A DNA stretch of 40,008 nt, from positions 1 to 40,008 of the forward strand of contig JAPKXZ010000002.1 in assembly GCA_026394555.1 (NCBI GenBank), read 5' to 3'. Source of the DNA: Methanothrix sp. (lineage in GTDB: Archaea > Halobacteriota > Methanosarcinia > Methanotrichales > Methanotrichaceae). A program made the position numbers and the translations under genes. The notes below the pieces were generated by a model that was given only the letters and a program-made list of their open reading frames with translations, was not told the origin of the DNA and did not search any database. The stretch's first letter is position 1. Each line of letters begins with the position of its first letter. Positions 16,523 to 23,767 of the stretch are shown here, in pieces.

Positions 16523-17289
16523 AACCCATAAACTGCATCATAGAAGAAGTGCGCTCGGAGGCTCCTCTGATCAGGACCTTTCGGCTGGATAGAAACTTTG
16601 ACCCGGCACCAGGGCAGTACGTCATGGTCTGGATCAGAGGCGTGGATGAGATTCCCATGAGCTTCTCGGGACCTGATACCATAACGGTGCAGTCGGTAGG
16701 CGAGGCTTCAGCCGCGCTCTTTAGCTTGGGCAGAGGAAGCAGCGTCGGCCTGCGGGGCCCTCTGGGCAATGGCTTTGTCCTGCGGGGCAAGAGAATTCTG
16801 CTCATGGGCGGCGGCGTGGGCACTGCGCCGCTGGCTTTTTTGGGCGAGCAGGCCAAAAGCGCTAGCATGAAGGTCGCCTCACTGCTCGGCTTTCGCTGCA
16901 AAGAAGACCTCATCTTCCGGGATCGATTTGAGGCTCTGGGAGATACTATTATCACCACCGATGACGGCTCCCTGGGCATACACGGCCGCGTTGCATCCGG
17001 GCTAAAAGAGCTAGACTTATTCGAGTACGATCAGATCTACCTTTGCGGCCCGGAGATGATGATGTGGGACATAATTTCCCGAACAGCGGAGCACGCCAAA
17101 AAGACCCAGGCCTGCATCAACCGCTACTTCAAGTGCGCGGCAGGCATCTGCGGATCCTGCTGCCTGGACCCGGATGGCCTGCGGGTCTGTGTGGAAGGGC
17201 CGGTCGTAATGGCCGACCGATTGCTGGAGAGCGAGTTTGGGCGATACCGGCGAGGCCCCACCGGTGGCAAGGGTCCCTGCAAAGGATAG
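16519..17289 (+). CDS. pyrK: Dihydroorotate dehydrogenase electron-transfer subunit
   Basis: A 256-residue ferredoxin-reductase-like protein with an FAD-binding barrel (DPAPGQYVMVWIRGVDEIPMS), NAD-binding half (ILLMGGGVGTAPLAFL) and C-terminal 2Fe-2S cysteines in CAAGICGSCCLDPDG plus the later VCVEGP. This is the PyrK arrangement, passing electrons from PyrD's FMN to NAD+. The start ATG overlaps the pyrD stop codon by four bases. The length is normal. It differs from the related protein at 30 kb, which carries an NfnA-like sequence without a PyrD neighbour. Confidence 0.94.
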   Translation: MKPINCIIEEVRSEAPLIRTFRLDRNFDPAPGQYVMVWIRGVDEIPMSFSGPDTITVQSVGEASAALFSLGRGSSVGLRGPLGNGFVLRGKRILLMGGGVGTAPLAFLGEQAKSASMKVASLLGFRCKEDLIFRDRFEALGDTIITTDDGSLGIHGRVASGLKELDLFEYDQIYLCGPEMMMWDIISRTAEHAKKTQACINRYFKCAAGICGSCCLDPDGLRVCVEGPVVMADRLLESEFGRYRRGPTGGKGPCKG

Positions 17290-17299
17290 TTGACTTGCG

Positions 17300-17340
17300 A
17301 ATACGATCACCACAAAGGCACAAAGGCACAAAGACGACTT
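17300..17340. repeat. CACAAAGGCACAAAG simple repeat between pyrK and the FAA-hydrolase gene
   Basis: Three imperfect 9-base units (CACAAAGGC/ACAAAGGCA/CAAAGACG). Such CACAAAGGCACAAAG strings occur between genes in many prokaryotic genomes, and a related CACAGAG-type sequence lies at about 21.07-21.16 kb in this window. Confidence 0.5.
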
Positions 17341-17371
17341 AATAATATTTGGCTCGGAGAGATGGTTTAAA

Positions 17372-18088
17372 ATGATAGTTCGATTCATGCTTGATGGCAT
17401 AGTTAGGGGAGGATCATACAGCAAAGAGAATGGCATAATCTCCAGGGGGGAAGTGCTAAGATTGGACGAAGTATTCCTTCTGCCTCCCTGCCAGCCGACG
17501 AAGATCGTCTGTGTGGGCTTAAATTACGTAAAACATGCCCAGGAGCTGAAGATGCCCCTTCCCGAGGAGCCCATTCTCTTCTTGAAGCCTCCTTCTGCCA
17601 TCCTGGACCCGGATGGGCATATCGTCTATCCTGCTTCCAGCAGCCAGGTGGACTACGAAGGCGAGCTGGCGGTAGTTATTGGAAAGCGCTGCAAAAATAT
17701 CCAGGCAGAAGAGGCGGAGAAGTACATCCTGGGCTACACCTGCTTCAACGATGTGACGGCCCGTGATTTGCAGCGCAAGGATGGTCAGTGGACGCGTGCC
17801 AAGAGCTTCGACACCTTTGCCCCCTTCGGCCCCTGGATCGCTAAAATAGATCCCGCTGACGCGGATATTGAGACACGCGTTAACGGAAAAGTGGTGCAGA
17901 AGTCGAACACCTCCGATCTGATCTTCGACGTGCCGAAATTGGTGCAGTTCATAAGCGGGGTCATGACTCTTGAGCCGGGTGATGTGATTGCCACGGGCAC
18001 GCCCCCGGGCGTGGGGCCGCTGAAAAAGGGAGATGCGGTGGAAGTTGATATCGAGGGGATCGGGGTGCTGAGGAACTTTGTGGTGTAG
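17372..18088 (+). CDS. Fumarylacetoacetate hydrolase family protein
   Basis: A 238-residue member of the FAH family (bacterial/archaeal FAHD1-like branch). It has an N-terminal beta-strand cap, then KIVCVGLNYVKHAQEL, the metal-ligand region VDYEGELAVVIGKRCKN (E-x-E), [20 protein letters not shown], the [11 protein letters not shown] loop, and the final [29 protein letters not shown] motif. Members hydrolyse or decarboxylate acylpyruvates, oxaloacetate or ring-cleavage products; the substrate is not decidable. A truncated copy of its 3' half occurs at 21659-21966. Confidence 0.92.
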   Translation: MIVRFMLDGIVRGGSYSKENGIISRGEVLRLDEVFLLPPCQPTKIVCVGLNYVKHAQELKMPLPEEPILFLKPPSAILDPDGHIVYPASSSQVDYEGELAVVIGKRCKNIQAEEAEKYILGYTCFNDVTARDLQRKDGQWTRAKSFDTFAPFGPWIAKIDPADADIETRVNGKVVQKSNTSDLIFDVPKLVQFISGVMTLEPGDVIATGTPPGVGPLKKGDAVEVDIEGIGVLRNFVV

Positions 18089-18133
18089 CAAGATTGAGGA
18101 AACAGCCAAATAGCTTGACGATAGATACCAAAG

Positions 18134-18751
18134 ATGACTATGAAGCTGAAAGTTAAGATTGCCGGTCCTAAAGTGCATGGTGTAGGCTACAGATACTTTT
18201 TGATGAGCAACGCCATAGACTTGGGTCTCAAGGGCTTTCACGCTCGCAATAGGACGGGCGAGAATGGGCCAGAGGTAACAGCCCTGGTCGAAGGCAATGA
18301 AGAAACAATCGCAGATTTTAAGAAGCTGGTAGAGACCCAAAAACCTGACCATTCCCAAGTATCGAGCATTGTCTTTGAGGACTATGAGGGCGATATTATG
18401 AGGACCAGCGAGTATGCCTTTGTTTGCACAAATATACAGCTAAACAAGGCAATCCCGCTACTCCTGGATATGAGAGACAACCTCAAAGAGATGACGGGTG
18501 ATCTGAAAGAGTTGAAGGGTGATATAAAAGAGTTAAAGGGTGATATAAAAGAGTTAAAGGGTGATATGAAAGCAGTGCGGAAGAATACCGATATCATCCC
18601 TCAAATCGGGGAAGACATCAAGGCCGTGAAAGCGAATACGAGTGAGGTCACGGAAGAGATCAAAGGCATGAGGGAAGACATTCAACCAGGATATGCCAGG
18701 CAAATGCAGGCCGATGTCAGAGCGATAAAGGAACGCTTGGGTATGCAGTGA
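18134..18751 (+). CDS. Acylphosphatase-like domain fused to a heptad-repeat coiled coil
   Basis: A 205-residue protein. Residues 1-100 are acylphosphatase-like: KVKIAGPKVHGVGYRYFLM contains the phosphate-loop arginine equivalent (GxV.GVGYR), then FHARNRTGENGPEVTALVEG at the position of the catalytic asparagine. A helical part follows from about 112, with four seven-residue repeats (GDLKELK, GDIKELK twice, GDMKAVR) and a long amphipathic tail. The repeats are nearly identical at DNA level (21-base unit, 18498-18570). This fusion is not the usual single-domain 90-residue enzyme, so a regulatory or scaffold role is possible. Two further copies of the N-terminal part lie at 20.6 and 21.5 kb. Confidence 0.7.
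   Translation: MTMKLKVKIAGPKVHGVGYRYFLMSNAIDLGLKGFHARNRTGENGPEVTALVEGNEETIADFKKLVETQKPDHSQVSSIVFEDYEGDIMRTSEYAFVCTNIQLNKAIPLLLDMRDNLKEMTGDLKELKGDIKELKGDIKELKGDMKAVRKNTDIIPQIGEDIKAVKANTSEVTEEIKGMREDIQPGYARQMQADVRAIKERLGMQ
18498..18570 (+). repeat. 21-base tandem repeats encoding coiled-coil heptads
   Basis: The unit GGTGATATAAAAGAGTTAAAG is repeated about three and a half times in frame, coding for GDIKELK. Two central units are identical, which suggests recent slippage expansion. Confidence 0.8.
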
Positions 18752-18817
18752 GTTTGCCGCGAATCCAAAAAGAGGCCAGGGCTAATAGCTGGTGGCAATT
18801 CTGGAAGAGGAATTAAG

Positions 18818-19084
18818 ATGATCCCTAGTGATGTATATATCGGCGTCCTTTTTGTAGCCGCAATTTTTATGCTATTCCTAATAAGCCAAATACTTGAACA
18901 TGGAATTGGTAGAGTCGTCATGGCGGTTCTTGCAGAAGCGGCTATTATTATTGTAATCTTCGCTATTGGCTATTTTGTGAATCCCGCAGGAAAAATGGGT
19001 TCGTTATTCGCAATTGTTTTCTCAATTGCTTCGGTGATAATTTTATGGGGAACATGGAAGGAAGTAATTCGATATGGAAAATAA
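18818..19084 (+). CDS. Small three-helix membrane protein, unknown
   Basis: An 88-residue protein that is almost wholly hydrophobic: three predicted transmembrane helices (about residues 7-25, 32-52 and 60-80) and a short basic C-terminus (WKEVIRYGK). GGAAGAGGAATTAAG precedes the ATG. No family recognised. It sits between the acylphosphatase/coiled-coil gene and the islet beginning at 19089, whose left inverted repeat overlaps the 3' flank of this gene. Confidence 0.55.
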   Translation: MIPSDVYIGVLFVAAIFMLFLISQILEHGIGRVVMAVLAEAAIIIVIFAIGYFVNPAGKMGSLFAIVFSIASVIILWGTWKEVIRYGK

Positions 19085-19088
19085 CTAA

Positions 19089-19132
19089 GTGAAACGGCTG
19101 CGGCGCACCCGCGGGGCGAGCTAGCGAGGTAT
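19089..19132 (+). repeat. Left arm of an imperfect inverted repeat bounding a 0.4-kb islet
   Basis: GTGAAACGGCTGCGGCGCAC and the following ~20 bases pair with 19444-19487. The outer 25 bases match at 23 positions and the match continues more weakly inward. Confidence 0.6.
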
Positions 19133-19139
19133 TGCGATA

Positions 19140-19268
19140 ATGGCAACTGTTGAAGTTCAAAAAGAGGATGTATTGGCGGCTTATGCAGATGAGCAGTATA
19201 GGAAGCTCCAGAAAGAGAAGGATCAATACATATCACTTGATGAGTATTGCACCAAACGTGGCATTTAG
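19140..19268 (+). CDS. Small antitoxin-like ORF
   Basis: A 42-residue ORF starting at ATG 19140 and reading MATVEVQKEDVLAAYADEQY, then RKLQKEKDQYISLDEYC and TKRGI. It is short, acidic and helix-rich with an ISLDEYC motif, resembling small archaeal antitoxin-type proteins. No matching toxin gene is visible downstream: the following bases read FLEEGDRTALDNGIIS and a lysine-rich end in another frame. It lies within the inverted-repeat islet 19089-19487. Function inferred weakly from form only. Confidence 0.4.
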   Translation: MATVEVQKEDVLAAYADEQYRKLQKEKDQYISLDEYCTKRGI

Positions 19269-19443
19269 ATTCTGTTATTCCTAACTTAGCCGCGATAAAG
19301 CTAAGTTCATGGCGCAAGAAGCGATTTCTGGAAGAGGGGGATCGTACAGCGCTCGATAATGGCATTATCTCCAGCAAGCAGGTGCCAAAAAGACGCAAGA
19401 AAAAAGGATAAATGATTGTACTGGAGTCAATTTATTATTTTGA

Positions 19444-19487
19444 ATACCCAGTAGCTCTGCTGCGCGGCTGCGCCGCCGCCGTTTCAC
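19444..19487 (-). repeat. Right arm of the inverted repeat bounding the 0.4-kb islet
   Basis: The reverse complement begins GTGAAACGGCGGCGGCGCAG, matching the arm at 19089. The arms enclose about 310 bases. Confidence 0.6.
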
Positions 19488-19636
19488 CTGATTTCACAAC
19501 AATATAATCTGTTGTTAATCAATTTCTGATGATTGGGTTTCTTGAATAAAATAGATGCACCCGTATGGAAAACCTTAAAATGATGCATTGGTAACACTAT
19601 TTCAGGTGAGATGAAATCAAAGGAGATAAGATATAA

Positions 19637-20467
19637 TTGGCAATTGATTGGAATCAAGTTTCAAGCACTATTACGGCAATTGCAACAGTTGGACTTGCTA
19701 TTTACGCCTATAAATCCTTCAAAGGCGTTAAGGATCAAATGGACTTAGTATATAAACAATCTGTAGATATGAAACGACAAGCAGATGCAATGGAAATTCA
19801 ATCTAAATTTATTAGAAACCAATCAGATGCTATGGCAAAACAAGCAGATATTATGGATAGCCAAACTGACTTTGTCCGCGACCAATCTTTTGCCATCCAA
19901 AATCAGGCAAAGACAATGTTAGAACAAGCCGAGGCCATGAAAAGCCAATCAGATTCTATGAAAAAGCAGTCAAATCTTATGCTAGAAAATATGGAGTATG
20001 ATCGATTGGTAAAAAAATATGAAAGAGTCAACAGAGAAATGGTCAAATTAGTAGGACCGTTATTTGAAAGAAAGAATGATATAAATATATTTTCGTTGAA
20101 ATATAAGCGTTCAGTAAGAATAGTTGTATCACCAACATCAAGAGTTCCAGATCCAAGTCCAAATACTCTAATTTATGACTTCGTATCATTTTGGGATTCG
20201 ATCGAACAAAACATGTATCTTAATAGATCCTCTGAATTTCAAACTGTTTTTAGTAGTTATTCTGTCTATGTAAGAGACTATTTCCAGAAAGCAGAAAGCG
20301 GCGCTGATGAAAAGCGGAAACAAGATCTTGAAGATATTTTCAATAGAAATAGGAAACCAGAATTTATTCGTGAAATAGAAATAAGACACTTGGAGCTTTC
20401 AACTGAGCTCAAGGACATAGAAAGCCAACTTAGCATGAAAATATCTGAAGAAAAAAAAGTCCTCTGA
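19637..20467 (+). CDS. Membrane-anchored long coiled-coil protein, A+T-rich
   Basis: A 276-residue protein starting at TTG 19637 with AGGAGAT nine bases upstream. One N-terminal transmembrane helix (STITAIATVGLAIYAYKSF) is followed by about 90 residues of Gln/Met/Asp-rich helix with repeating phrases (QSDAMAKQADIMDSQ, MKSQSDSMKKQSNLM), then a globular C-terminal part of about 140 residues with a second coiled coil. The codons are strikingly richer in A and T than in the neighbouring genes, suggesting recent acquisition. This architecture is common among membrane-tethered phage- or defence-island-associated proteins of unknown role. No enzymatic motif seen. Confidence 0.65.
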   Translation: MAIDWNQVSSTITAIATVGLAIYAYKSFKGVKDQMDLVYKQSVDMKRQADAMEIQSKFIRNQSDAMAKQADIMDSQTDFVRDQSFAIQNQAKTMLEQAEAMKSQSDSMKKQSNLMLENMEYDRLVKKYERVNREMVKLVGPLFERKNDINIFSLKYKRSVRIVVSPTSRVPDPSPNTLIYDFVSFWDSIEQNMYLNRSSEFQTVFSSYSVYVRDYFQKAESGADEKRKQDLEDIFNRNRKPEFIREIEIRHLELSTELKDIESQLSMKISEEKKVL

Positions 20468-20649
20468 GTAGCGTTTCAAGTTGCTTGGCTCATGAAATTT
20501 CCTCATAGCTATTGATTTTAATGATTTAGTGGATAGGGAAAATAGGGTTCCTCGCTGTTATTGGTGGTCAAGGGGCAAATTTTATTAATATCATTTCGAA
20601 GTTGTCTTGGAAAAAACCAAATAGCTTGCCGATGCATATCAAGGGTGAC

Positions 20650-20970
20650 ATGAAGCAGCAAGCCAAGATAACCGGTCCCAAAGTACATGATGTGGGCTAT
20701 CGCATATTCCTGATGGAGGCGGCAATGGATTGCGGAGTGCACAGAATTTCTGCCTGCTGGTGGGAGGAAGATCGCCCGCAAACACTCATCTGCCTGGTTG
20801 AGGATGAGGAGGCAAGAATCACCGCCTTCCAGAAGTTCATAAAGAGCCATAAGCCGGTGCAAGCTGAGGTATCGGCTATCACTTGGGAAGATTACGATGG
20901 CGAAGTGATGCACATCAGCGAATTTGCCCAGATCTGCACTTGCATGGTTCTTCAAAGGCTATTTGTGTAG
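20650..20970 (+). CDS. Divergent acylphosphatase-like protein (second copy)
   Basis: The frame is open from 20602, but ATG 20650 (after AAGGGTGAC) matches the start of the related copies and gives 106 residues: [22 protein letters not shown]. The fold follows an acylphosphatase: GVGYR-type loop replaced by DVGYR, then an altered central part (ACWWEEDRPQTLICLVEDEE) where the catalytic Asn motif should be. The C-terminus ends CTCMVLQRLFV with no coiled coil. The catalytic asparagine is not evident, so enzymatic activity is doubtful. Its 5' flank (about 50 bases before the ATG) is nearly the same as that of the copy at 21510. Confidence 0.6.
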   Translation: MKQQAKITGPKVHDVGYRIFLMEAAMDCGVHRISACWWEEDRPQTLICLVEDEEARITAFQKFIKSHKPVQAEVSAITWEDYDGEVMHISEFAQICTCMVLQRLFV

Positions 20971-21039
20971 ACGATTTCTTTGAAGAAGGCATAGTTCATC
21001 GAAATGCGAGAAGTCTCTATAGCCAGTGGATGATGGTTT

Positions 21040-21180
21040 TGTTAGTTCGTCGCTCTGTGCGTACTCTGTGAACTTTGTGTCTCTGTGGTGGATTAGTCGT
21101 TAGCCACTGGTTATAACCAATGGTTTACGGAATAGAACCACAGAGTCGCAGAGCGCACGGAGGACGAACGAACGGAGATT
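21040..21180. repeat. Foldback element with a palindromic centre
   Basis: GTTCGTCGCTCTGTGCGTACTCTGTG... on the left pairs imperfectly with ...CACAGAGTCGCAGAGCGCACGGAGGACGAAC on the right. In the middle, CCACTGGTTA at 21104 meets TAACCAATGG up to 21123, a near-perfect 20-base palindrome with one mismatch. No coding function seen. It lies directly before a gene scrap and may be an intergenic foldback repeat. Confidence 0.6.
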
Positions 21181-21266
21181 ACTTCTCTTTCGATCTGCCC
21201 TCAAACTCCTGGAACGTGCGCAGTGCGAAGACCGGCACCTTCGTCTGGCCGATGATGGCGACTATG
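21179..21266 (-). pseudogene. 3' scrap of an unidentified gene
   Basis: On the minus strand one frame reads KDAVFIVAIIGQTKVPVFAL and then RTFQEFEGRSKEK to a stop at 21179-21181. The peptide is protein-like, with a hydrophobic strand followed by a charged end. It is out of frame with the adjacent GHMP-kinase scrap. I do not recognise the family. Confidence 0.35.
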
Positions 21267-21515
21267 AACACCGCATCCTTGGACCATCGTCCTCGCTCGC
21301 CCCCGCGCGTGCAGCCCCGGCCATGTGCACCTTCAGCCCCTCGTTATCCACCTTTGTCTCAATGGCAATCTCCAGCCCCAAAGGCTCAATAAGCTTGGCT
21401 ACCTCTTCTCGGCTGCGGTCGGTTACGATGGCAATGGAGGGGCCTACCGAGCTCATGCCCACGAACTGCAGGCCGCTCTCCCGCAAAAGGCTCATGTGCC
21501 GATTGAAGATGTCTT
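21262..21515 (-). pseudogene. C-terminal scrap of a beta-RFAP synthase-like GHMP protein
   Basis: The minus strand reads IFNRHMSLLRESGLQFVGMS, then SVGPSIAIVTDRSREEVAKL and a KVDNEGLKVH end. This matches the C-terminus of beta-ribofuranosylaminobenzene 5'-phosphate synthase, an enzyme of methanopterin synthesis, which has a GxxGMSSFGPTVYA motif. The N-terminal two thirds are absent: the frame runs into the acylphosphatase copy at 21510. It is a stranded end of a translocated gene; a functional copy is expected elsewhere in a methanogen. Confidence 0.55.
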
Positions 21516-21966
21516 GGAAACAAACAAATAGCTTGCCGATACAGATCAAGGGCGACATGAAGCAGCAAGCCAAGATTACCGGTCCCAAAGTGCATGATGT
21601 GGGCTATCGCATATTCCTGATGAGCAATGCCATAGACTTGGGTCTCAAAGGCTTCCAGGCTTCAACGATGTGACGGCCCGTGATCTGCAGCGCAAAGATG
21701 GTCAGTGGACGCGTGCCAAGAGCTTCGATACCTTTGCCCCCTTTGGCCCCTGGATCGCCAAAATAGATCCCTTTGACGCGGATATTGAGACGCGCGTCAA
21801 CGGAAAGGTGATGCAGTTCATAAGCGGAGTCATGACTCTTGAGCCGGATGATGTGATTGCTACGGGCACGTCCCCCAGGAGTGGGGCCTCTGAAAAAGGG
21901 AGATGCGGTGGAAGTAGCGATCGAGGGGATTGGGGTTCTGAGGAATTTTGTGGTGTAGCAAGATTG
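21510..21966 (+). pseudogene. Chimera: acylphosphatase 5' part joined to the FAA-hydrolase 3' half
   Basis: Bases 21510-21658 repeat the leader and first codons of the acylphosphatase-like genes ([20 protein letters not shown]). At the GGCTTC junction near 21655 the sequence changes to a copy of the FAA-hydrolase gene corresponding to 17742-18096. Relative to the intact gene it lacks 48 bases (17900-17947), exactly one repeat interval between two GTGCAG-containing direct repeats. A one-base insertion near 21870-21880 then breaks the frame before the GDAVEV end. Homology continues past the stop codon. Neither fused part can make an active enzyme. Confidence 0.8.
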
Positions 21967-22217
21967 GGTCGTGAACCTCTAATAGGTTTTAATTTTGTGA
22001 TGTGGAAAAGTCAATAATTCACTCAAGCTCCAGATATGATCGATCAAGCCAGCATGTTTCGCGGGGCAGTTCAATTTTATTTTCCCCTGACATCCCTATA
22101 CTTTAGAGAGCGATGTTTTCGGCAGTAGTTGAAGTTTGCAAAATATAAAGTCAGGAGATTCGGATTGTGGAAGATGCTGCATAGCAAATGGTTGAACGAT
22201 AATCCTGTTTGAGGTAT
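21967..22217. other. Intergenic stretch without recognisable genes
   Basis: About 250 bases downstream of the FAA-hydrolase copy. I see no ORF with protein-like sequence, no tRNA and no strong repeat in it. Confidence 0.4.
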
Positions 22218-22281
22218 TCAGAGCAGATTTTTAATGGCCTCGGAGATGCTCCAAACTCTTATGAGATCGGAATCTCTTATT
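22218..22281 (-). pseudogene. vapC: C-terminal half of the split vapC toxin gene
   Basis: On the minus strand, directly outside the left end of the TnpB element, one frame reads IRDSDLIRVWSISEAIKNLL and stops at 22218-22220. This is the typical PIN-toxin ending (…I-K-VWSISEAI…) that is missing from the vapC fragment on the other side of the element. The two parts were one gene before insertion. Confidence 0.75.
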
Positions 22282-22355
22282 TTATCTCGTTGGGGTACAG
22301 GGGTAGAGAAGACCCCAGACTTCAGGCTGGGGATGAATCGTACCCCTTCATGATT
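22281..22355 (+). repeat. Left end of the TnpB element (copy A)
   Basis: Shared with 29661-29736 (same strand) and in part with 28876-28907 (minus strand). It contains the CCCCAGACTTCAGGCTGGGG hairpin and a GGGGTA...TACCCC outer stem. Confidence 0.8.
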
Positions 22356-22416
22356 ACTTTCGCTGCGCACTAATTGACTTAATATAGCAATGGTGCGACC
22401 ATATTATGTTAATATG

Positions 22417-23079
22417 AAAACTGCCTACAAGTTCCGGCTATATCCAAACAGGCAACAAGAAGCACAATTGGCCTTAACGCTGGATACCTGTAGGCATCTT
22501 TGGAATAAAGCACTTGCTGATCGCAAAAATGCCTGGGAACGCGAAGGTATAACTCGATCTTACGAAGATCAGGCAGCTTTGCTGGTCTTTGAGAAACAGT
22601 CTAATCACAACCTCAATGCAGTCCATTCTCAGGTCGAACAGGATGTCTTGAGGAGGCTTCAGAAATCCGTTGATAACTTCTTTCGAAGAGTTCGCGAAGG
22701 GGCTCGAAAAAAAGGCTACCCCAGGTTCAAGTCCATTAACCGTTATAGCTCGGTTACCTATCCCCAGTCAGGGTTCAAATTGAACGGCTCTCTGCTGATA
22801 CTCTCAAAAATTTCCGGCGGCATTAGAACCTTTGTGCATAGGCCTATTGCGGGCAGGATCAAAACCGTGGTATTGGTAAATCCCTATAACACTAGCCAGA
22901 GATGTTCTGCTTGTGGTGAGATCGTGCCCAAAAAGCTGAAAGATAGGGTACATATCTGCTCTCGGTGTGGTCTCATAATCTGCCGAGATCTCAATGCAAG
23001 CATGGGAATCAGAACCCTCGGACTGAGGGGGATAGCCTGTGGAGAACCGACCTATGGCTTTGGCCTATGTACAAAGTAA
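22417..23079 (+). pseudogene. tnpB: TnpB, RuvC nuclease core deleted
   Basis: A 220-codon frame (also open from ATG 22390). It starts MKTAYKFRLYPNRQQEAQL, then QVEQDVLRRLQKSVDNFFRR and KKGYPRFKSINRY, the normal N-terminal third of TnpB. It then jumps from PIAGRIKTVVLVNPYNTSQ straight to the zinc finger CSACGEIVPKKL...CSRCG and CRDLNASMGI. Full-length TnpB is about 370-400 residues. The missing part holds the first two RuvC acidic motifs, so the protein cannot be an RNA-guided nuclease. The junction is in frame. Confidence 0.85.
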
Positions 23080-23196
23080 GCGTCGGTTCGTTGAAGCAGG
23101 AAGCCCCATCCTTTAGGGTGGGGAGTGGCTTTGGCCTATGTACAAAGTAAGCGTCGGTTCGTTGAAGCAGGAAGCCCCATCCTTTAGGGTGGGGAG
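23055..23196 (+). repeat. Perfect 71-bp tandem duplication of the tnpB end and right-end hairpin
   Basis: Bases 23055-23125 and 23126-23196 are identical. Each contains the last tnpB codons (TYGFGLCTK), the spacer, and the CCCCATCCTTTAGGGTGGGG hairpin. Two right-end hairpins are therefore present in series, which is not seen in the other element copy. Confidence 0.9.
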
Positions 23197-23538
23197 GAAG
23201 TCACCATTTGTGATCAGGACTGCTGCGGTATGAAGACAAGTTGCAGCATGAACCACATCAGATGCCTTACCTTCAGGAAAGAATGGCTTGCATCTTTGTA
23301 CCTCGTCTTCGGACTGATCAGTCAAAATAACCCGGCTCTTCATGTAGAAGAAGACATATTGTGCATCAAGTTGCTGAGCATACTTCTCATACTCCGCAAG
23401 CAAAGATTTGTTGGCAACCAGTTCGAAAGAGCCATCCAGGAGGACAGAGAGAAGTTCCGAACTCTTCGTCCAAACGCTCTTTACCGCCGCAATAAATAGA
23501 TTGGAGTCAATCAAGAACCTTGTACATCTTTCTGGCAA
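23113..23538 (-). pseudogene. vapC: VapC-like PIN toxin, N-terminal part ending in the TnpB element
   Basis: A PIN-domain ribonuclease toxin: FLIDSNLFIAAVK (first Asp), LLAEYEKYA (Glu), and SDVVHAATCLHTAAVLITNGDF (Asp). After ITNGDF the frame enters the right end of the TnpB element at 23204 and gains a foreign end (LPTLKDGASCF...). The authentic C-terminus lies beyond the element at 22218-22281. The start is a TTG at 23538 or an internal TTG nearer the LIDSN motif. It overlaps the abrB-type antitoxin gene by about 30 bases, as usual for such operons. PIN acids are present, so partial activity is not excluded. Confidence 0.8.
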
Positions 23539-23767
23539 CTCTGTTTCCCTCTTCGTCCATCTCTTTTTGGAGCTTGTCGAGGTCTACGGACTTGGCGCGC
23601 TCAATCGCATCCTGAATCATGGATCGCACATCTACTTTTCTAATTAGAATTGTGTCCGGCCCGACCTCGTCCACAACAAATTCATCTCCAGGAACGATTT
23701 TCATCTTGCGCCTGATCTCGTTAGGTAGGACCATTCTGCCTTTTTCATCAACTTTGGTAAACGGCAC
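23507..23767 (-). CDS. AbrB/SpoVT-type antitoxin (partner of the split VapC)
   Basis: An 86-residue protein. The N-terminal swapped-hairpin DNA-binding domain reads TKVDEKGRMVLPNEIRRKM, then VPGDEFVVDEVGPDTILIRK, the AbrB/MazE signature. A helical C-terminus (IERAKSVDLDKLQKEMDEEG) would bind and block the toxin. Such antitoxins repress their own operon. The gene appears complete and overlaps the broken vapC. With its toxin split, the module is probably relaxed or being lost. Confidence 0.88.
   Translation of the reverse strand: MPFTKVDEKGRMVLPNEIRRKMKIVPGDEFVVDEVGPDTILIRKVDVRSMIQDAIERAKSVDLDKLQKEMDEEGNRVARKMYKVLD

Follow-up and report, generated by a model that had tools for sequence, protein, structure and literature searches.

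Introduction

For the PATEs of Haloquadratum, passages of PMC3119063 describe a repeat-mediated deletion of the core of the element, with a product of 52 bp, and for the IS200/IS605 family, passages of PMC7290912 state that both ends carry hairpins, that the target is short, and that no target duplication arises. These are the closest described systems to the locus reported here, an islet of 0.4 kb in which an antitoxin-like open reading frame (ORF) lies between two inverted arms. The locus is part of a window, that is, the whole stretch of DNA analysed, of 40,008 nucleotides from Methanothrix sp. As judged from alignment, both arms are opposite copies of a repeat dispersed in Methanothrix, and are transposase-less IS200 derivatives (PATEs). 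They very likely represent two separate PATE insertions around an orphan antitoxin gene that lost its toxin, and the islet is probably not a single mobile unit.

Results

Geometry of the islet

The outer parts of the arms, at 19089–19113 and 19463–19487, form an inverted repeat of 25 nt that is 92% complementary, with a spacer of 349 nt, in agreement with the 23 of 25 matching outer bases first reported. The likeness over the longer arms of 44 bp in the original prediction is genuine as well; its inner portion is weaker because both arms are copies of one repeat family. The contrast in G+C between the arms and their surroundings is visible by eye in the sequence, and the ORF of 42 residues said to be enclosed by the arms is indeed there, at 19140–19268 on the + strand. 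We also considered that the arms might resemble each other by chance, and rejected this, since both match our repeat model R1 and align with one another in alignment A1.

The left PATE copy occupies 19088–19139 (R1 match 19088–19148, 56.5 bits), and the right copy 19440–19488 (R1 match 19429–19488, 74.5 bits). The model R1 is written from right end to left end and the strands of both arms are given accordingly: the left copy is on the + strand of R1, which is − in the IS200 orientation, and the right copy on the − strand of R1, which is + in the IS200 orientation. Both copies have their right end pointing outward, that of the right copy at 19488, and the left end of the left copy abuts the ATG of the ORF. 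A candidate target, TTATT, adjoins the right copy at its left end (19435–19439, + strand), the assignment being made from the sequence and from the TTATT counts across copies given below; an intact TTATT is absent beside the left end of the left copy. An Rfam scan of 17000–23300 gave nothing at gathering scores.

The repeat family

A search for the arms elsewhere in the genome, as suggested in the original prediction, was productive. With 19070–19500 as the query, the own genome (2.53 Mb in 75 contigs) gave 21 matches. Many of these cover an arm only, and in some cases both strands match at a single place. The aligned copies belong to a single family: they begin sharply with (A)GTGAAAC, and their conserved end is GGGGTATT, after which comes an A+T-rich tail. 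The family occurs in a short form (about 50–57 bp) and a long one (about 165 bp) with the same two ends. The repeat model, built from 17 short copies, also has 21 matches in the own genome, both arms among them, and has matches in 21 of the 26 genomes of the genus, the own genome counted. As is expected of PATEs, the repeat is below the length needed to code for a transposase and is dispersed, as these 21 matches attest.

Scanning one genome per species for an exact pattern gave 62 stretches. Of these, 53 come from records whose titles name Methanothrix, Methanosaeta or Methanotrichaceae; the remainder are from “uncultured Methanosarcinales archaeon” (five), “uncultured archaeon” (two), a Thermoproteota (one) and a Chloroflexi MAG (one). 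The Thermoproteota and Chloroflexi stretches have their flanks in common (99.7 and 100% identity), and mis-binning is therefore likely for both. In the literature searched, we found no description of an IS200-derived PATE family in Methanothrix; the repeat is a new family of a known kind of element.

In one Methanothrix MAG, several contigs (L134, L136, L138, L162, L174 and others) break off about 138 bp into a long-form copy, which would fit an assembly interrupted by recent, near-identical copies.

Relation to IS200 transposons

Nine loci with long-form ends were inspected. In three of them (L037, in the own genome, L115 and L151) an ORF of about 150 aa lies beside the repeat; in the other six, the end of the contig was reached or no such gene was seen nearby. 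All three ORFs are IS200-type Y1 transposases (PF01797, Y1_Tnp, with E-values of 6e-34, 1.4e-23 and 7.1e-31, respectively). A repeat copy lies at most 100 bp from a tnpA relative in two more genomes (G041:C333 and G016:C324), and TnpA relatives are present in 15 of the 26 genomes of the genus. On the 5′ side of tnpA, the left end consists of TTATTC or TTGAATACCCC plus a hairpin; on the 3′ side, the right end is a hairpin inside a longer GC stem, terminating in GTTTGAC. The two ends of the repeat correspond to these left and right ends around tnpA, among them those of the full-length IS200-group transposon of the own genome, as they should in a PATE, and the proposed mobile-element origin of the arms has thus held up. 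At the level of sequence, then, both the family membership of the arms and the equivalence of repeat ends and transposon ends are established.

Short, dispersed, GC-rich and palindrome-bearing as they are, the arms could instead be REP sequences with a domesticated REP-associated transposase (RAYT) and a regulatory or structural role in the host, and the TnpA of the own genome (contig C55) does have a weak match to the REP-transposase model NF047646. This match, at 25 bits, is however far under the cut-off of 80, whereas the same protein passes the NCBIfam IS200/IS605 model NF033573 with 131 bits against a cut-off of 55, and tnpA is flanked by the same ends as the repeats. A REP/RAYT nature of the arms is hardly credible, and we rejected it. 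Derivation from an IS200 transposon is the reading we retain.

The short repeat is composed of the left-end hairpin and the outer right end, an arrangement that a deletion of the core between two similar hairpins would produce. Compared with its shuffles, the own transposon's full right end folds much better (z = −5.02), and two-sided pair changes are found at 6 of the 24 pairs in the long-form alignment. The two arms of the window fold no better than shuffles (z = −0.92 and +1.13), and none of the five pairs in the short-form alignment has two-sided changes; the two PATE copies of the window may therefore be degraded and no longer mobile.

Insertion sites and target

Comparison of the flanks of 99 copies from the list, in which one place may appear under several locus names, with the collected loci gave one empty site. 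It pairs the C71 copy of the own genome, the left end of which adjoins AATAATTATT, with L143: about 56 bp are added in the filled site, and a target duplication is absent. The original prediction had proposed looking both for empty sites and for a short target duplication. An empty site thus exists for another copy of the family, but none was found for the arms of the window, where a DNA search of 41 genomes, with up to 8 candidates scored in each, returned none that spans both flanks. As for the duplication, there is none at the one empty site, and in the IS200/IS605 family it is not expected. The C56 copy gave no clean empty site. Among the proteins encoded in the flanks, one of 88 aa was found in the own genome alone (1 of 26), and one of 276 aa in 3 of 26 genomes, the two besides the own genome having weak relatives.

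When the 89 distinct copies were sorted, 60 were short and 29 long. TTATT is on the left-end side in 38 of 57 short copies, the three of the 60 that have no recognised end being excluded, in comparison with 5 of 60 on the right-end side, a control that is not matched for composition; the misses in this count include several mis-sorted long copies.

The FAA-hydrolase remnant and the extra block

Inside the islet, 19335–19374 (+ strand) aligns to the 5′ region of the FAA-hydrolase gene at 17372, with a score that was reached by none of 1000 shuffles under two scoring schemes. On this alignment, and on the layout in the relatives G021 and G010, we assign the segment as a remnant of the 5′ region of such a gene, which explains the FAA-hydrolase likeness noticed earlier and shows it to be genuine. 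In both relatives, the equivalent of 18808 runs directly into the equivalent of 19326–19374, which in G021 continues into further FAA-like codons. Part of the interior of the islet therefore belongs with the sequence outside it. Compared with G021 and G010, the window has an extra block, 18811–19337 (no strand assigned), between copies of TTCTGGAAGAGG at 18799–18810 and 19326–19337, and this block straddles the left boundary of the reported islet. The 12-bp direct repeat formed by the two copies bounds a step of 527 bp that is missing from G021 and G010 and that contains an 88-aa membrane-protein-like ORF (1 of 26 genomes), the left PATE and the antitoxin ORF.

The wider neighborhood has further features of its own. 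Acylphosphatase-like genes in repeated copies, along with a second FAA-hydrolase fragment, lie at 18134–18751, 20602–20970 and 21570–21920; these acylphosphatase and FAA-hydrolase repeats point to a duplicated, rearranged region, and similar arrays are found in relatives. A short TnpB-like ORF of 229 aa, with HTH_OrfB_IS605 and Cas12f1-like_TNB domains, is located at 22390–23200, its 3′ end and hairpin being duplicated in tandem. On the − strand, at 23113–23767, a MazE/AbrB-like antitoxin gene (PF04014, 37.6 bits) overlaps a PIN-like gene that is below the cut-off, likely making a second toxin-antitoxin pair in the window.

The antitoxin-like ORF

The ORF at 19140–19268 has no match above cut-off to a curated family in Pfam or NCBIfam. 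It does have relatives in 19 of 60 genomes, including a copy in contig C2 of the own genome that is 93% identical. In G001, the relative is directly 3′ of a 93-aa ParE/Gp49-like toxin gene; among the contexts listed, similar toxin-like genes also precede relatives that are more distant. Six neighbor genes of relatives were scanned: four are above the Pfam cut-off, one is just below it, and the truncated gene in C2 has no hit. Since its relatives follow toxin-like genes, the antitoxin-like label of the original prediction stands as far as family membership is concerned. The ORF list of the window contains no toxin gene before the ORF, and, taking that list, the relatives and the context together, the ORF is best read as an orphan antitoxin whose toxin partner is absent. 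Elsewhere, the relative in G020 is directly after an acylphosphatase gene, and that in G019 is interrupted by an in-frame stop.

Compared with the C2 copy, the ORF has 7 synonymous and 2 changed codons, and compared with the G001 copy, 9 and 2; between the C2 and G001 copies 12 positions differ, every one of them synonymously. In the G006 copy, which is more distant, changed codons prevail (18 vs. 7 synonymous). With changes relative to close relatives mostly synonymous, the ORF is, to judge by its codons, under purifying selection, and the antitoxin may still be active. The linkage to a toxin in G001 and the mostly synonymous change in the ORF are established from comparison of the genomes, as is the one empty site without duplication.

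The DNA similarity between the ORF and its C2 copy starts at the ATG, beyond the arm. As the PATE end abuts this ATG and its inner end would provide a GAGGT nine bases before it, the left PATE might have been co-opted to give the translation signal of the ORF, which is, moreover, conserved with mostly synonymous changes. The C2 copy, however, has its own AAGAGGT before the ATG in the absence of an arm; the GAGGT may thus be residual or due to chance, and we regard such a co-option as unlikely. The reading we keep is that of an orphan antitoxin gene with a PATE inserted on either side.

At the C2 locus (L023:1037–1514), a long-form PATE is found upstream, with the truncated toxin gene in between; both copies of the ORF in the own genome stand near a PATE.

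One mobile unit or two insertions

The original prediction took the arms and the ORF together as one miniature mobile element, and for this we find no support: none of the 28 other loci of the ORF (two of them overlapping) has an opposite pair of arms at E up to 0.1, at the C2 locus a single long copy lies upstream of the truncated toxin, and the DNA likeness to the C2 copy, starting as it does at the ATG, leaves out the arm. Elements of the IS200/IS605 family require a left end and a right end that lie on the same strand. The inverted ends of the islet do not provide such a pair, and would not make a single excisable unit.

A compound mobile element, made of inverted copies of the ends with the antitoxin as cargo, would account for arms that are mobile-element ends with their outer ends pointing outward, and also for their proximity: by our own arithmetic, 21 copies in 2.53 Mb would place two within 400 bp about 0.07 times, so that the close pairing is mildly unusual, and only one other pair closer than 600 bp is found among the matches listed (G016:C139), in the opposite layout. 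Against such an element, paired arms occur at 0 of the 28 other ORF loci; the host sequence of the interior is contiguous with the outside in two relatives; the ends are not on the same strand, as IS200/IS605 elements require; and the DNA between the G016 pair is different, with no such ORF. We rejected the compound element, which we hold to be extremely unlikely, in favor of two separate PATE insertions. In the G016 pair itself (L194:1–528), the opposite repeats are about 390 bp apart, with their left ends outward.

Discussion

We propose the following course of events. The source would be an element of the IS200 group, with a Y1 tyrosine HUH transposase, from which a PATE of 50–57 bp would have arisen by fusion of the left-end hairpin region with the outer right end. 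A TnpA like that of C55 presumably mobilised this PATE in trans, and it would insert as a single strand next to a TTATT-like target, the exact form of which is a prediction, without duplicating it. Two copies would have come to lie in opposite orientations in the rearranged intergenic region 3′ of the acylphosphatase gene. The ParE/RelE-like toxin gene would have been lost, leaving the antitoxin as an orphan, and the left PATE probably came to meet the start codon of the ORF via a deletion at the junction.

One could go further and suppose that in Methanothrix small toxin-antitoxin genes are trimmed or shuffled by opposite PATE pairs acting with a resident IS200 TnpA, which we consider very unlikely. 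If it were true, the islet would be the product of an end-driven rearrangement in which the toxin was lost and the antitoxin retained, and a transposon end would supply the translation signal of the antitoxin.

The islet is for the most part ordinary, as the ORF shows no sign of travelling with the arms. Its analysis brings to light a PATE family of IS200 origin that occurs widely in Methanothrix, along with a probable helper transposase, and this family accounts for such GC-rich arms wherever they recur in the genus. It also illustrates that two inverted copies close together can mimic a cargo-carrying miniature transposon.

Among known systems, REP sequences with their RAYT resemble the Methanothrix repeats in being short, dispersed and palindromic and in having a Y1-type transposase, but the Methanothrix transposase fails the RAYT model and is flanked by the repeat's own ends. 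The ORF compares with ParE/RelE-type modules in which the toxin gene comes first: its G001 relative directly follows a ParE/Gp49-like gene, whereas the ORF of the window has no preceding toxin and the toxin of the C2 copy is truncated. With the IS200 group of the IS200/IS605 (Y1) family, the Methanothrix elements share a tnpA that is above cut-off for PF01797 and NF033573, hairpins at both ends, and the absence of a duplication at the one empty site; unlike that group, the repeats themselves carry no transposase, and the helper activity is predicted. Closest are the PATEs of Haloquadratum walsbyi, which, as described in PMC3119063, are likewise short and transposase-less, have palindromes near the ends, are akin to IS605-type transposons, cause no target duplication and include a 52-bp form that consists of the termini only. 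Their core deletion has a probable counterpart here, deduced from the shared hairpins. The Methanothrix family differs from them in belonging to another archaeal genus, in its sequence, and in its helper, which is IS200-type, with tnpA unaccompanied by tnpB between the ends in the three loci read.
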